Origin: Rhizopus arrhizus
Taxonomy: Eukaryota > Mucoromycota > Mucoromycetes > Mucorales > Rhizopodaceae
Assembly: GCA_024220505.1 (NCBI GenBank)
Contig: JAKZZE010000015.1
Coordinates: forward strand, 1,229,110-1,293,109
Length of the DNA: 64,000 bases
Direction: 5' to 3'
The notes below the pieces were generated by a model, which saw nothing but the letters and a program-made list of their open reading frames with translations, was not told where the DNA came from and searched no databases. This document shows, piece by piece, positions 17,644 through 24,345 of the stretch (position 1 is its first letter; each line of letters opens with the position of its first letter). The translations under genes and the position numbers were made by a program.

Positions 17644-18200
17644 AGCTTTCATAATTGATTTTTGTAACTTGAAATTCTCCTCGATCTTAAAAAGTAATAA
17701 AATTTAATTTATTTTATAGCAGTCAACAGCATCAAAGTATTATTTAACATAACCATCTTTTTTTAAGAGGAATGCACTTTTAAACATATCAACTGAAAAA
17801 ATACTTTATAAAACCTTTGTTACGTAAACAGGATGGATAGCATAAATAATTACATTTCATTACATAAAAAATTAAGCTCCCGTTGTATGCTTTATGTAGT
17901 TTTCTTTTTTCATAAACAACCAATGATTTAAATAAATTATTATTTTTACATAAAAATCAAGATGACCCTGAACCTTACCAGAATCATCCTCTTATTTATC
18001 CTACCTTCATTTTTGCACCCTATTTTCCCTTGTTGACTATCTGCTCTTGATTGCTTTCTCTGGGTAGGATAAACAAAGTCGCCAACTCTTCTTTTTGATT
18101 TTTTTTTTGTTACTATCCATCTTCAATCAAATCTTTCAATAGTGGGCTTTTGATCTTTGATAACATGATAAATTAGAGTATTCAGATGAATCAATATATA
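17644..18200. other. Intergenic DNA, 3' flank and pre-transposon region
   Basis: AT-rich with poly(T) tracts and no coding or RNA signal seen. It ends at the TA dinucleotide (18199-18200) that abuts the mariner/Fanzor element. Confidence 0.5.
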
Positions 18201-18223
18201 CAGTGCGACTAGTAAATTTTGTC
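18201..18223 (+). repeat. Left terminal inverted repeat of Fanzor element
   Basis: 23 bases beginning CAGTG directly after TA. The inverted partner at 23305-23327 differs at three positions. Confidence 0.88.
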
Positions 18224-18231
18224 CATTCTGA

Positions 18232-18294
18232 AAAAATAAACGGCAACTTCCGAAAAATAAATGGCGGTTACCTAAAAATAAACGGCACTACCTG
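18232..18294 (+). repeat. Three tandem 21-bp iterons, left end
   Basis: Copies at 18232-18252, 18253-18273 and 18274-18294 share AAAAATAAAyGGC followed by a variable part and a CC. The period is exactly 21 bp, two helical turns, which would place bound proteins on the same DNA face. They are probably transposase or host-factor binding sites; alternatively part of a transcribed structure. Confidence 0.8.
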
Positions 18295-18446
18295 ATAAAT
18301 GTTTAGCTGTTTGCTAGCAAATAATTGTCGCTCTTAAAACTTTACTTTGTCTTTTTGGGCCGAGTCAAATTGGGTTGCTGAGGGATTATTGTCGGCTATG
18401 ATGTAAAGGCTTTATTTCTTTCCCTTCGCTCTAACAATTGAATAGC

Positions 18447-19680
18447 ATGACAAAAAATACATTTTTTATGAAGACGAACACAATAATGCCTACAATAAGG
18501 ATGGAGAGAGAGTCTTCGACCCGATGGAAGGTGTGTTAACCGAAATCAGTTATCCAAACGTAATACTTGAATCCACAACGAGCCAAAAGTCCTATCTGAG
18601 TCTCAAACCAGCAGAGAAAGAAACTACTGCAAAAGATTCAACAAAAAAGGCTATAACAGTGGTCAAGAAAGCAGCGTCTATAAAGACTACAACGACCAAA
18701 CCAGAGAAATATTTATTGACCAAATGATCGAGAGTTCTATGGAAAGAGGAAAATGACTTTGCATACAAAGGATCTTGGAATTAATACTCGTACTGCTATG
18801 CGCTGGTGGAAACACTATCAAGAAACTGGGAAGGTAGTTTACAAAACGTTACAAAGAAATCCCGGCCGACCCAACTCACTGACTCCTGAGAATGAGCAGC
18901 ACATTCAACGAATAGTTGAAAAAGACTCACAACTTTGTGCTGATGACATTATTGATTCTTTGAAATCGCTGTTTGAGGACTTGAAGACTTCAAAGTCTCA
19001 AATAAACCACCACTTGAGAAACAACATGCTCATTTCAATGAAGAAGCCAACCTTCGATCCTATGACAAGAAACACTGATAATAGCTTGTAAACGAGATAC
19101 GAGTGGTTCATGAAGTGGAAAAGCTCGGATCTGGATTACACTAAGAACTGCGTTTTTATTGATGAGGCTGCATTGAAGACAGCCAAATAAAAAAAAGGAA
19201 AACTTGCAGGAGGCAAAGAGCAAAGAGCAGGCGACATTATTATTGAAAAGCCTACTATAGAGTACAATGGTGTGGAGGAGAATATTGCCATAGAGAACAA
19301 CAAGCCAGTAGCAAAAGGTACCACTACTGCCCACTTTGTAAGATTTACAAGTGAACTTCTTGGTATCATGGACATGGACGAAGGTCTTATGGTTAGTTAT
19401 CTTGTAATGTATTACTGTACTATTCATAATTCTCATCCAATGATAAGAAAAATTGAGATTAGAGGTTATAGAGTAATGTACTTACCTCCTTGTTCGCCAG
19501 AGCTCAACCCAATTGAGCAGTTTTAGAATATAGTTAAAGGAAAGCTCAAATGTCGTCGAATAAAAACTTATCGAGTCGAAGTGCTGATGCTTGTAATAAA
19601 GTTATTTATAGCTTCTCTAGTCAAATTATCTACTGTTTTAATAAAACACCTATGTGAACATGCTTTTAAAATCATACTAT
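18447..19680 (+). pseudogene. Degenerate DDE (Tc1/mariner-type) transposase
   Basis: Fragments in shifting frames follow transposase order. A helix-turn-helix part has INTRTAMRWWKHYQETGKV (18.78 kb). RYEWFMKWKSSDLDYTKNC with FIDEA carries the first catalytic Asp (19.1 kb). TTTAHFVRFTSELLGIMDMD and YLVMYYCTIHNSHP occupy the place of the second catalytic Asp, which here is Tyr. PPCSPELNPIEQF-stop contains the catalytic Glu. Breaks include frameshifts near 18728 and 19090, an in-frame stop at about 19187, internal deletion before 19270 and a stop replacing the Trp after EQF. It cannot make an active enzyme. Confidence 0.88.
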
Positions 19681-20054
19681 GATATTTTCATAACACCATA
19701 TCTTTTTAGAATGTAAACCTTGCGAGAATTGATATGATTAAAACAGCTTTATTGGGCTCATCAAAGGACCTTTAATGGAGATTTTGATCAGTGAATATAT
19801 CATCATTATGCAGTGACATTACAAGATGACGGTCCAACATTTTATGATCATCAAGTATGTTCTTAACATAATTATCATTGAGGTTTGATGAAAAAACATA
19901 AAGAACTTGACACATTTAGACGCTAATAACTTCTCGAGTCCTACCTACTATGTGTATCTAGAAAACAAGTATCTTCTATTGCAAGTTATTACATGGTATA
20001 AGCTTATTGTAGTCACTTTGCTATTATTAGGTTGTAGCTGTGTTCGAATAAATC

Positions 20055-20063
20055 TATATAAAT
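20055..20063 (+). promoter_or_regulatory. TATA-like box of the Fanzor gene
   Basis: TATATAAAT lies about 95 bp upstream of the proposed Fanzor ATG at 20158, a plausible distance for a core promoter. It suggests the gene has its own promoter. Confidence 0.35.
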
Positions 20064-20157
20064 GAGATGGAAGTATTTCCTTTTAACATTTAAATCAATT
20101 TCTGAAGACATTTTTTCTTTTTATTGGTAAATTTCACTCGTGAAAACACATTAGAAA

Positions 20158-23094
20158 ATGAAAGGAAAGCAAAAGGATACTTTATTCTCTTCAAATCAAA
20201 AGAAGCCATCTAAGAGCGAAAATGGTAGGCTCCATATCTAATAATGGATCGAAATGTCACTGACCACAAAATTGATACTGTTATAGATTCGTTTGAACTA
20301 TATGTAGAAAACAACTCAGACGACGACTTCCAACCCGCTGTAACAGCTAGGAAAAGAAAAAGTAAGTTGCATTGTCAAACTTGATGTAGGTAAACAGCTA
20401 GTCTAACGTATGAAACTCCATCATAGGTAGGGAAAATATTCCACAGAGTGGATTACAAAAGAGACTCAAAGGCAAAGGAAAAGCTACAGATTCTGAAGTT
20501 ACTACTACGAGTAGTACTGGTATCTCTACAACAGATGAAACTATCATGTTCGATAAGATCACTCTTGATGACTATGATCTTGAATATAGCAGTGACGATT
20601 TTGATGCACCTGTCGTCAAAAGATCCTTTTTGGGTGAATTAACCAAGTCTGATTTTCGTATCACCAAATCAACTTCTGCTGCTGTGGAGTCAAGCACAAC
20701 TGCTTTCAATTCAGCTGCAACTTCTATCAAGTCAAATTTTTGTCCTGTACCTGTTGACAAGGCAAGTGACATTAAAGAAGGCCCTAAGAAGATAAACAAG
20801 CGTGTGATGGCAATTAAAACGACTGTAAAAAATATTTGGAAACCAGCATATTTACAGCCATTGTATGATTTGGTTCACACTACCAACTTACTAGTTACAC
20901 ATACCTTTGCCTTCACAAAGTACATATATTTACAAGAGCTGGCAGCAAATGAAAATTTTGCGCTGAACAACTTTGTGACAAAAGATTTCTTTGTTGAAGT
21001 TTTTCTGAGTCTTGTTCTCTCAAAGGGTAGAAATAGCTCAAGGCTGAAGGATACGACCAAAAGCTATAGGCGATTGATATCAAGATATAAAGGAGCTTAC
21101 TTTGAAAACGCTGGTTATACTCCTCAAAACTTACCATATGCTCAGCAAATAGCCTTGTACGAGTGTACGAAGATCCAAACGGCCTACTATAATAACATCA
21201 AAGCTCATTTTGGAAATAGGCTGCGTGGTTTGATAAACAGGTTATTTAAAAAGAAGGAAAAGACAGAGAGTCTCAGAAGAGAAATGCAAGCAAACAAGTC
21301 TAGTAGTAAAGCGATAAAAGAAGCTATCCGAAAGAAGATTTATGGACCTTGCAATAAGGTGAAGTTTGCCATCGCAAAAAAAGAAATGCCTGAAGTTGGT
21401 CTTTTAGATGATCAATCAAGAACACAATTAAATGGCTTTCTCTCAAGCTACCCAGAGGACTACACCTTTCAAAAGAACTCAATTTACTATGACATTATGT
21501 CTAGTCCAAAAAACCATTTTAAAGCCTTCTTCAGACTTGCCGAATTGTCTGAAGCTGAACAGATGAAACAGTTTGCTTGTTTCCCGCTACGTACCACCTT
21601 TATTCCTTGCTACATGATGTTGGATAGCAAAATAATCCATCACCATGTTCTCAAGAGCAAAAAGAATCCAAAAACAGGAAGCAAGTTTGAGACATGGGGT
21701 GCCGTCGTAGACTTAAATAAAAAGGCGTTCAAGCATCAAGGATTTCAAAAGTCTTTGCGGTTCCAAGGAACTCTCGAAACCGATGGAGTCGGTGTCTCCA
21801 TAATAAAGCAAAACACTGATACAAGCAGAAAGTCGCCTAAACTCAACACTGAAAAGAAAGTGGACGGTAATCAAACAGAGCATATTGAAGGATTAGGTCA
21901 AGCCGACTTAAAGAGCGCTGAAGGCAAGTGTGTCTTGATAGACCCTGGAAGGCGGGACTTGATGTACTGCATGAAAGAAACCAGCATTGTTGAAGAAAAA
22001 CAAACACTTATATTTACCAAGAACAACCGCTCAAAATGTTCAAGGCACTTTAGATATTTAAGAAAGCGTACTCAACCTTTTGTCGTCCAGGAAGCAGAAG
22101 CGATCCTTTCTAGATCTGAATCCAACTCTGTAAACTTGAAAAAGTTTGTACAGTACATTAAAACAAGAGAATCAGTAAAAAACACTTTGTACGAATATTA
22201 TGAAAACGAGACAACAAAGTCAAAAGAAACATATTTCCCTGAATCCGAATTTGACTTTCGAGTGGACCAAAACTGTAATTTGTATTATGGAAATCTGTTC
22301 ATAGCAAGAATCCGTGGTTTTTTCCCTCAGCCTGAGAATTACTCTACTGATAGCTCTGTAAAGTCTCAACTGTATGCCACCTACCTACAAACAATGCTAC
22401 AACAAAAGCATATTTCAGAAAGACTAGATGATAATGAGAAAAGCAAAGTTCTAGGGCTGGCAAAAGAGATGTACAGACGACCACAGCAAAGCAATTACAA
22501 AAAGGCTATTAGTACAGCATTAGAAAGGCTACAGCTTTTACCTTTTCGAAAATTGAAGTTTTCAAGTAAACTCTTCTTTGACCAGAATGATCAAAAACTG
22601 GTGCGTAGCTTAAAAGCAAATTTTGGTCAAGATGCTGTCTTAGTTTTTGGAGATTGGTCCGCCCCTAATGACAAGTATCAAGAACCAACAAGAAACAAGG
22701 GGTTAATCAGGATGTTAAAGAAGAACGGGTTTGTTGTCTACTTAATCAATGAATACAAAACATCTTCCCATTGTCCAACCTGTGAAAATGACTTGGAAAA
22801 ATTCAAAACCGTGCCAAATCCTCGCCCTTACCAACGGAAAAAGAAGCCAGATGTGCTATGTAATGGTTTGCTGAGGTAATCCAAAGGGAAAAATAAACTA
22901 GAATAATTCTTGATAACTAATGCAGTACTAGGTGTAAGAGCCTCTCATGCCTTAAACAACAAACCACAGGAATAAAAAGAAGACTTTGGAATCGCGATCA
23001 AGCAGCCGTATTGAATTTTCTCAGGATCCTAAATAGTTTGAGAAAGACTGGCAAACACCCTAGCCTTTTCACCAGAAAATATTCTTTAGATTGA
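20158..23094 (+). CDS. Fanzor (eukaryotic TnpB-like RNA-guided nuclease)
   Basis: Exons 20158-20224, 20287-20361, 20427-22875 and 22932-23094 give 917 aa with GT-AG junctions throughout. The N-terminal ~110 residues are charged and low-complexity with basic clusters (ARKRKSRE, KRLKGKGK) that could be nuclear signals. The C-terminal half has the RuvC-like core: VLIDPGRRDL with Asp553; FGDWSAPN (Asp790); then INEYKTSSHCPTC with Glu823 and Cys830/833; CNGLLRCKSLSC (Cys865/870) completing the zinc ribbon; and WNRDQAA with Asp886. The last two parts are brought into frame only by removing the 56-bp intron at 22876-22931. The canonical RuvC-II Glu position carries GDW, and the Glu 33 residues later may serve instead, as reported for some Fanzors. 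No internal stop: the gene looks functional. Family members are RNA-guided DNA nucleases; the role in this element is unproven. Confidence 0.92.
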
Positions 23095-23233
23095 TCATCT
23101 TTAAGTAGAACAAAAGTAGGAAAATCACAAAAAATTCTCCACCAAGGTTATCGCTTTGGTCATTTAATACAGGTATTGCAATAAAACAAGTACAAAGCGA
23201 CAACAATAAATGTACTAAACGAAATTTTCATTT

Positions 23234-23296
23234 AGGTTAGTGACATTTATTTTTCTGGAAACGACATTTGTTTTTTGCTAAACGAAGTTTATTTTC
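23234..23296 (-). repeat. Three tandem 21-bp iterons, right end
   Basis: Mirrored relative to the left array: 23234-23254, 23255-23275 and 23276-23296, with cores AAAAATAAATGTC, AAAAACAAATGTC and GAAAATAAACTTC on the minus strand. The copy number and period equal the left side although the sequences have diverged. Confidence 0.75.
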
Positions 23297-23304
23297 TTTA
23301 AACC

Positions 23305-23327
23305 GACAAAATTTACCAGCCCCACTG
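23305..23327 (-). repeat. Right terminal inverted repeat of Fanzor element
   Basis: Ends CACTG followed by TA. The terminal G at 23327 is also the first base of the 15-bp target duplication made by the adjacent LINE. Confidence 0.88.
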
Positions 23328-23341
23328 TATATGCAATCATC

Positions 23342-24330
23342 CTCTTTCGCTTCCCCAACACTTTTGATAATTTTTTTCCTTTTAAGGAAATACCTCATCA
23401 TGCCCACCCACCTTCAAACCATTCAACGATTACAAAATGAACTCGCAATCGCTAATGCCAAGATACACCAGTTGCAACAGGAAAACGCTTCTTTGCGGAA
23501 GCAAGTATCCTCTGAACCCACACCAACTGCAAATCCCAGTCCTCCTTTTGAATCTACTCCCCCCCTCCTCCAAACGTCCACGCTCCCCCAGCAATGATGC
23601 TGCTCCTCCCACAACCAAGGTATCTAAGCTTCCGAATCCCAAACCCAAACACAGTTTAGCTGCCATTGCTCGACAATTTTCCTCTCCTACTGCTCCTTCC
23701 AGCTTCAAGTTTATTCACGTTCCCATTCACCGTCGCCTCCCCATCCATCAACTCCGTGCTAACCTTCGTGAGTTGCACATTAACACACGCCGCATTCTGG
23801 ATATTCAATATTCAGATCGAAATGTGGTCAGCTTCCTTATTCATACCGGTTTCGAACCTGAGCTCCGTTCTCAGCTGTACAAACACAAAATCACTATTCG
23901 TGACGACTTTGACCCTCTGAGCCCCTCCATCATTCGTGATCCTACACTTCTCAATGAATCCATTGAAAGAAAAACCAAACTTGCTCGTCATATATTCCTC
24001 CAACGACTTGGTTCTGCTTTCCGCCGTCTCAAGGCTCCTCTTTATAACGCTGTCACTAACTACTTTCTCCAATCTGGACTCATAGACCTCAATTTCTTGG
24101 AGTCTTTTGATCTCGCTCCCCCTCACAGCTATCACAACCCTCTCCTAGACAAGATCTAGAGCTCTTTTCTACCTCTTCCCTTCCCTTTTCTTTTTCCCTT
24201 TTTGACTATCAAAAAGGTTTTTAGCACTCTTTTATCCTCCCTTTGATCTGACCCGGGCAATTCAATCCTAAAAGTGATTATGTGCTCACATGGGGTTTTT
24301 AATTTTTATAAATAAAAATAATCTTTAATC
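23342..24330 (+). mobile_element. ORF1-only (half) LINE copy with target duplication
   Basis: The 989-bp insert is bracketed by GTATATGCAATCATC at 23327-23341 and 24331-24345, a 15-bp target duplication. It contains the LINE ORF1 and then directly a 3' tail (GACTATCAAAAAGG, CTGACCCGGGCAAT, GTGCTCACATGGGG) that recurs at 25.2 and 27.5 kb. ORF2 with endonuclease and reverse transcriptase is absent. The insertion point is the junction of the Fanzor element and host DNA. Confidence 0.85.
23401..24159 (+). pseudogene. LINE ORF1 (nucleic-acid-binding gag-like), one frameshift
   Basis: Translation from MPTHLQTIQRLQNELA gives a leucine-zipper-like coiled coil (LQNELAIANAKIHQLQQENASL), then a Pro/Ser-rich part. 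Frame changes in a run of seven C near 23565. The second frame (to 24159) encodes SKRPRSPSND and a basic domain with RRLPIHQLRANLRELHINTR and FDPLSPSIIRDPTL, the conserved part of Mucorales LINE ORF1 proteins. Without the indel it would be about 252 aa. No zinc knuckle is visible. The break lies in a homopolymer and could be a sequence error. Confidence 0.75.
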
Positions 24331-24345
24331 GTATATGCAATCATC

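Follow-up and report, generated by a model that had tools for sequence, protein, structure and literature searches.

Constraint on a Fanzor nuclease and a one-sided TATA flank in a Rhizopus arrhizus Tc1/mariner-type family with a broken transposase

The window analysed here is a stretch of 64,000 nucleotides from Rhizopus arrhizus (assembly GCA_024220505.1, contig JAKZZE010000015.1, positions 1,229,110 to 1,293,109, forward strand), and coordinates without a prefix refer to it. At 18201..23327 it contains a Tc1/mariner-type element that carries a gene for Fanzor, a eukaryotic RNA-guided nuclease, together with the remnant of a DDE transposase. The transposase is dead across the measured copies of the family and changes as neutral DNA does, beside a Fanzor that is constrained among its intact copies; the right end of the element is conserved, and the motif TATA adjoins left ends far more often than, in mirror image, right ends. 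It is probable that this is a non-autonomous mariner mobilised in trans, whose Fanzor1 nuclease is under selection and keeps or spreads the element by cutting empty sites under RNA guidance. A more specific version is possible and is put forward tentatively, namely that in this eukaryote a transposon lacking its transposase has lasted and multiplied under selection for a nuclease that rescues or homes copies only at TATA, the flank motif being a genome-wide survivorship footprint of a Fanzor that acts as a selfish gene drive in vivo.

Transposase decay and selection on the Fanzor gene

The features of the window copy are as follows.

18197..18200 (+): TATA directly left of the element, including the target-site duplication; candidate Fanzor target-adjacent motif (TAM)
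18199..18200: TA target-site duplication, left copy
18201..23327 (5127 bp): Tc1/mariner-type element carrying Fanzor; starts CAGTG, finishes CACTG
18201..18295 (+): left terminal inverted repeat with three iterons (18233, 18254, 18275) at 21-bp spacing
18446..19680 (+): Tc1/mariner-type DDE transposase remnant, broken in every copy examined
19161..19190 (+): core-deletion junction directly after the first catalytic Asp (codon 19161), with TAA at 19188
19410..19412 (+): second catalytic Asp changed to Tyr (TAT), common only to copy C12_1763449
19524..19526 (+): TAG stop where the PIEQFW block has its Trp, in 24/26 copies; CAG in the remaining two
20244..20361 (+): Fanzor exon 1; intron 1 is GT..AG in 11/11 copies read
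20427..22875 (+): Fanzor exon 2, with REC, WED, RuvC and FRI regions by homology to Parasitella parasitica Fanzor 1 (PpFz1)
22932..23094 (+): Fanzor exon 3, encoding WNRD (RuvC-III Asp) and the zinc finger's second pair of Cys
23236..23327 (+): right end, with inverted repeat, three iterons and candidate omegaRNA scaffold; highest conservation in the element among intact copies
23328..23329: TA target-site duplication, right copy
23328..23345 (+): right TA duplication and predicted guide start, the guide position being taken from the Fanzor1 literature; a retroelement begins at ~23342

The element has the hallmarks of Tc1/mariner transposons, a TA duplication and CAGTG-type inverted repeats. 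Its terminal arms are ~74% complementary across 95 bp and each contains three AAAATAAAYGGC-like iterons spaced at exactly 21 bp (23295, 23274 and 23253 in the right arm, where they fit AAAATAAAYGGC with three or fewer mismatches). The good terminal inverted repeats, TA flanks and iterons described in an earlier note on this DNA, made from the sequence alone, are therefore all present.

The genome searched comprises 50.3 Mb in 41 contigs. With the Fanzor exon, 55 of 366 candidates were scored, so that the counts are lower bounds, and at least 79 Fanzor stretches were found, which were grouped by hand into 40 family places and three copies of a second family. DNA searches identified at least 54 stretches with the leftmost 1.5 kb as query (best 40 of 118 candidates scored) and, with the rightmost 228 bp, at least 40 places with 94-100% identity (best 40 of 79 candidates scored). 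Sixty family loci were merged into 49 copies; 36 of these have >300 bp of transposase, 31 have >600 bp aligned to the transposase open frame and 22 have >1800 bp of Fanzor. Five copies have a wholly intact spliced Fanzor (909 or 926 aa, mutually 91.5-95.9% identical), and two more, with a single frame break each, complete a set of seven intact or near-intact copies.

The transposase remnant is recognised in two pieces, with Pfam matches to HTH_32/HTH_29 below and to DDE_3 above the curated cut-off. In the window copy it is interrupted by stops at 19089, 19188 and 19524, and one base near 18754 that is present in 27/36 copies is missing, a loss that is not family-wide. The 26 copies that span the second catalytic Asp have GAT in 21 cases, TAT in 2, AAC in 2 and CAT in 1. 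Wherever both Asp sites could be mapped (24 of the 49 merged copies), they are 225-274 bp apart, versus 396 bp in the related locus L063, and ~50 residues of the transposase core are missing in all 24. This core block, which follows the first Asp, is retained in two related loci, L062 and L063, each with lesions of its own. Among the 150 genome matches to the block that were listed (best 150 of 377 candidates), none lies in a family element when set against the 80 family matches listed; just one of them, C1:1332823, comes closer than 7 kb to a family match, at ~6 kb from a Fanzor match and outside that element. A tblastn search of the 49 copies with the block gave two matches, in C3_63306 (E 4e-6) and C39_1254884 (E 0.08), both outside the stretches that match the element. 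The longest transposase frame, 318 aa in copy C12_1763449, is without the core and the second Asp and ends at the common TAG. No intact transposase was found among the family copies examined, and the complete DDE transposase of an autonomous Tc1/mariner element is thus absent from them. With the core missing from 24/24 copies and the common stop present in 24/26, the family must have spread after its transposase died, and the window element belongs to a non-autonomous Tc1/mariner-type family. The earlier note had described a dead transposase with a lost Asp, stops and frameshifts; these lesions are present. The change of Asp to Tyr recurs in just one other copy, whereas among the copies examined the core deletion and the stop at 19524 are family-wide. 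The contrary pattern named in that note, decayed Fanzors next to intact transposases, did not occur among these copies.

Selection was evaluated from one-step codon differences with two states, the neutral share of nonsynonymous changes being taken from the observed mutation spectrum, and the main test was restricted to the five fully intact Fanzor copies. Their Fanzor genes differ by 71 synonymous and 99 nonsynonymous changes (of 170), a nonsynonymous share of 58.2% versus a neutral 70.8% (p=3.3e-4). The transposase could be scored in four of the same five copies and has 28 synonymous and 75 nonsynonymous changes (of 103), 72.8% versus 71.9% (p=0.91); the change patterns of the two genes differ (Fisher p=0.019). 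Raw pairwise omega is 0.33-0.46 for the five Fanzors (median 0.37, simulated neutral mean 0.64), and the transposase median is 0.69 in the four scorable copies and 0.64 across the 31 alignable ones. In the set of seven intact or near-intact copies, the three codon positions have diverged by 3.1/2.8/4.7% in Fanzor and by 9.0/6.8/7.3% in the transposase; the figures are 9.3/8.7/8.7% for the transposase in all 31 alignable copies and 7.9/7.6/8.0% for Fanzor genes that have decayed. In the full set of 22 Fanzor copies, non-singleton variants have a mildly low nonsynonymous share (66.2%, p=0.039), and in the last of six classes, deep variants with a minor count of at least 6, only 20/47 are nonsynonymous (p=7e-5). 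In the five intact copies the last 92 bp of the element have 4 differences in 908 comparisons, as against 27/591 for the left 100 bp and 710/8673 for the transposase. The claim of the earlier note that the nuclease has been selectively kept while the transposase decays is, at the level of the family, supported by the omega values and by the neutral-share tests.

Flank motif, right end and surroundings

From the copies, and from snippets around listed inverted-repeat sites (100 of 149), 52 left-type, 59 right-type and 6 unclear ends were collected, with TA adjoining 47/52 of the left-type and 55/59 of the right-type ends; ends without an adjacent TA (5/52 and 4/59) and the six unclear ends are omitted from the flank counts. 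TATA is present at 34/47 left-type ends and, in mirror image, at 10/55 right-type ends (p=3.4e-8), and inclusion of the non-TA ends gives 34/52 and 10/59 (p=2.4e-7). Position by position, there is a T at -4 in 41/47 left and 18/55 mirrored right flanks (p=2.3e-8) and an A at -3 in 38/47 and 27/55 (p=0.001). The background in the window is TATA at 459/5074 TA sites (9%). Sorting of the left ends gave TATA at 33/39 family and 4/13 other left-type ends (p=6e-4), a split made by hand after the flanks had been seen, with some unclear-type ends among the 39; the counts 41/47, 38/47 and 34/47 are independent of it. For ten elements both ends were collected, and TA occupies -4,-3 in nine of their left flanks and three of their mirrored right flanks. 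Outer flank 7-mers are distinct in 37/39 family left ends, so the insertions are separate. That bases -5 to -3 are part of the element was ruled out, as no TA stands out farther out and 55/59 right ends adjoin TA directly. The position and the letters of TATA suggest, by analogy with known Fanzors, a TAM at the left flank.

At the other end, target-site duplications are predicted to form part of the Fanzor1 guide-RNA scaffold (PMC10711439). With the duplication in the scaffold, the TA could serve both as motif and as scaffold, and the guide would start after it. The window copy has a retroelement at ~23342-24331, flanked by a 14-bp duplication (TATATGCAATCATC) at 23328-23341 and 24332-24345. 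It is short and non-LTR-like, has an ORF1-like frame at 23386-24159, and begins 14 bp from the right end of the Fanzor element. This right flank (the retroelement start) has 33 matches in the genome, including the window place, with 94-100% identity, whereas the left flank matches the genome once, at itself. As a result, the comparison with empty TA sites proposed in the earlier note yielded no paralogous empty site.

Other elements in the genome were recorded. Three core-bearing mariner transposases could point to a parent or a mobiliser: C40:1302535-1303461 (L063), C40:1922887-1923485 and C7:626943-627839. L062 and L063 did not yield the mobiliser: their ends differ, L063 having at best 6 mismatches to the inverted repeat. 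L061 (C37:1597229-1602616) is a palindrome with left-type family ends on both sides, long inverted arms, retroelement-like frames and no Fanzor, and L065 (C5:1248202-1252424) is a 4.2-kb element with 66-bp inverted repeats that resemble the family ends and retroelement-like frames inside; no family transposase was seen between the matching ends at L061 or L065. The second Fanzor family, ~41% identical, has copies at L064 (C23:648494-650296), C2:1447396 and C23:266572. In L064 an open exon of 617 aa is enclosed by inverted repeats of 129 bp (88%), and a transposase frame was not seen there.

Proposed mechanism and alternatives

From the family pattern we infer mobilisation in trans, a guide RNA, cleavage and repair. 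The family's own transposase was destroyed before the spread, and later copies would have been moved by a transposase supplied in trans. Fanzor would bind a short RNA transcribed from the conserved right end, with a last part that reproduces the sequence flanking the insertion on the right. An element-free site would then read T(T)ATA followed by the guide target, and Fanzor with the element's RNA would cut there, so that repair from the element-bearing chromosome could restore or copy the element, following its excision or at an empty allele. Insertions without the motif could not be rescued in this way and would become under-represented, which would leave the one-sided TATA seen at present. 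The TATA-adjacent pattern suggests, without proving, that the cutter aids the persistence of the element. Of the roles offered in the earlier note, retention or copy-back repair thus gains support from the left-flank motif; a role for the host and help in transposition are the subjects of two of the alternatives below.

Several observations weigh against this mechanism. Constraint on Fanzor is only moderate, 33 of the 40 Fanzor places are broken or partial, and the singletons among the 22 Fanzor copies as a whole are neutral (71.7% nonsynonymous). In the window copy taken by itself, the private Fanzor changes (10 synonymous, 17 nonsynonymous) are not distinct from neutrality. In the part of the genome examined, no mobilising transposase with CAGTGNNNCTNGTAAATTTTGTC inverted-repeat ends was found, and the flank motif could come from such a mobiliser if it acts asymmetrically. 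The presumed elements that have a left-type end at either side number three, too few to decide between such asymmetry and a Fanzor footprint. Folds of the right-end RNA are no better than those of shuffled sequences (z -0.45, 0.23 and 0.63), and the retroelement leaves 12 native guide bases after the TA in the window copy, so that its present guide would be partly retroelement sequence. Excision of mariner elements usually leaves a footprint, which would spoil a perfect match to the donor site, and homing into empty alleles is therefore favoured over donor repair.

The one-sided TATA might instead be the target preference of the trans-acting transposase, with Fanzor selected for something else, such as a helping or regulatory part in transposition in trans, or the binding of cyclophilin by way of the RuvC insertion. 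For this reading, which we regard as unlikely though far from negligible, speak the TATA at 4/13 other left-type ends, above the 9% background of the window, and the alignment of the cyclophilin-binding PQP loop of PpFz1 with FFPQP at residue 671. The target preference of Tc1/mariner transposases is, however, normally palindromic, yet the mirrored right flanks have no matching excess of T at -4; the three elements with left-type ends on both sides have TATA at 1/6 ends, and the motif coincides with known Fanzor1 TAMs. Takeover of Fanzor by the host, so that it is kept for the fungus rather than for the element, would fit an intact coding sequence with introns and a nonsynonymous share under the neutral one. 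It is improbable given that the five intact copies are at different places, that the right end of the element is conserved too, that the constraint is moderate with no single locus standing out, and that the left flank in the window matches the genome once.

Constraint on Fanzor could be a relic of selection that preceded the death of the transposase and no longer acts, as old variants are the most constrained and singletons are neutral. Silent divergence among the intact copies (~0.07) is, however, near the transposase divergence in the same copies, which places their changes after that death, and changes private to single copies within the intact or near-intact set of seven are also in deficit (84/142 nonsynonymous versus a neutral 70.8%), making a relic quite improbable. 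Recent loss by chance, the alternative named in the earlier note, holds that the transposase of the window copy merely died first and that Fanzor has not yet decayed; the neutral private changes of this copy are compatible with it, as is an Asp-to-Tyr change found in just one other copy. With the core deletion and the stop common to the family, and with a transposase that fits neutrality beside a Fanzor that does not, the loss was neither recent nor private, and chance loss is refuted for the family and very improbable overall. That the shortened transposase still works and the family is autonomous is strongly disfavoured and barely credible: one copy does keep an open frame of 318 residues up to the common stop, but the ~50-residue block that core-bearing related copies have after the first catalytic Asp is missing, the three codon positions are equally divergent over the 31 copies, and the change pattern is neutral. 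With a neutral transposase beside a nuclease under selection in one stretch of DNA, the family contains its own control. It also gives a quantitative, falsifiable prediction for a close relative of a solved and assayed protein, namely that the TAM is TATA and that the guide starts after the TA.

The Fanzor1 protein and known systems

The window Fanzor is, by its sequence, a Fanzor1 and a close relative of PpFz1. As in Fanzor1 generally, the gene lies inside a transposable element. It has three exons and GT..AG introns, and the intact spliced frame of the earlier note is free of lesions, as claimed there, with a length of 909 aa (911 aa with an alternative acceptor) in place of the 917 given. 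A search of solved structures matched PpFz1 over residues 17-907 (E=0) and, as a second distinct match, SpuFz1 of Spizellomyces (E 8e-50); a protein search matched 86 proteins, the top two, from Rhizopus arrhizus/delemar, being 94% and 85% identical. The catalytic residues D545 (DPGRRD), E815 (NEYKTSS) and D878 (WNRD) are present, and the split RuvC triad (DPG, alternative Glu, then D) occurs in all five intact copies and aligns to PpFz1 and SpuFz1. The C4 zinc finger followed by RD is also there (CPTC, CKSLSC and WNRD, spanning the junction of exons 2 and 3), although its match to Pfam PF07282 is weak (E 0.023, under the cut-off) and the exact CPTC string is absent from copy C41_94465. The RuvC insertion (FRI) is kept, with its putatively cyclophilin-binding PQP loop.

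The length of exon 2 is 2489-2501 bp in 7/11 copies read and 2449-2452 bp in four, including the window copy, which is without a 51-bp (17-aa) in-frame segment of the N-terminal region at ~20697-20705, within exon 2, beside a 9-bp repeat. A Rhizopus protein, P0060, annotated as a cellulase, has both PF02015 and the Fanzor-type PF26935, by fusion of gene models or by insertion into a cellulase gene.

Bacterial TnpB of IS200/IS605 elements cuts the excised donor site. The family resembles it in a left-flank motif, a right-side guide and a proposed cut of the element-free site, and differs in host and in transposase chemistry, mariner elements leaving footprints. Donor-site cutting by TnpB is also discussed in PMC10432273.

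PpFz1 (PDB 9cf0-9cf3) is like the window Fanzor in its full-length match, RuvC triad, zinc finger, FRI and PQP loop; FRI is reported only from Parasitella parasitica and Rhizopus, and the PpFz1 TAM, ATN, fits the ATA at the left flank of the window family (PMC11423790). The state of the transposase, selection and insertion-site statistics, which the window family offers, are not covered in the available text of that paper. In Spizellomyces punctatus, Spu-1 is an inverted-repeat element in which no transposase was found between the repeats and which has many Fanzor-less relatives; the conserved CA left of its left repeat matches the SpuFz1 TAM, CATA, a footprint of the same type as the TATA here (PMC10432273). 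No transposase remnant, and hence no neutral yardstick within the element, is reported in that part of the source, nor was a left/right statistical test or a dN/dS found in it. PUl-4 and PGv-1, from other organisms, are mariner-type elements that carry Fanzor1; TA duplications are described, and some elements have no transposase. The old Fanzor1 family CMe-1A is described in the same source (PMC3627910). Its authors already reasoned that a function is implied when a non-autonomous family keeps its coding capacity over time; a paired test of transposase against Fanzor was not found in it for these three.

Fanzor1 in mariner elements and Fanzor-only elements are thus already known (PMC3627910, PMC10432273, PMC10711439). 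A within-element paired selection test, or a left/right test of the flank motif, was not found in the available open-access Fanzor literature, nor was a demonstration of retention by any Fanzor in the literature surveyed, and the benefit of Fanzor to the elements that carry it is stated to be unknown (PMC10432273). If the proposed mechanism is true, the family would supply evolutionary evidence of a transposon being maintained in vivo by a eukaryotic RNA-guided nuclease. Compared with the known systems, what the Rhizopus family adds is the left/right asymmetry of the flank motif and unusually direct evolutionary evidence for the Fanzor-only type of element.

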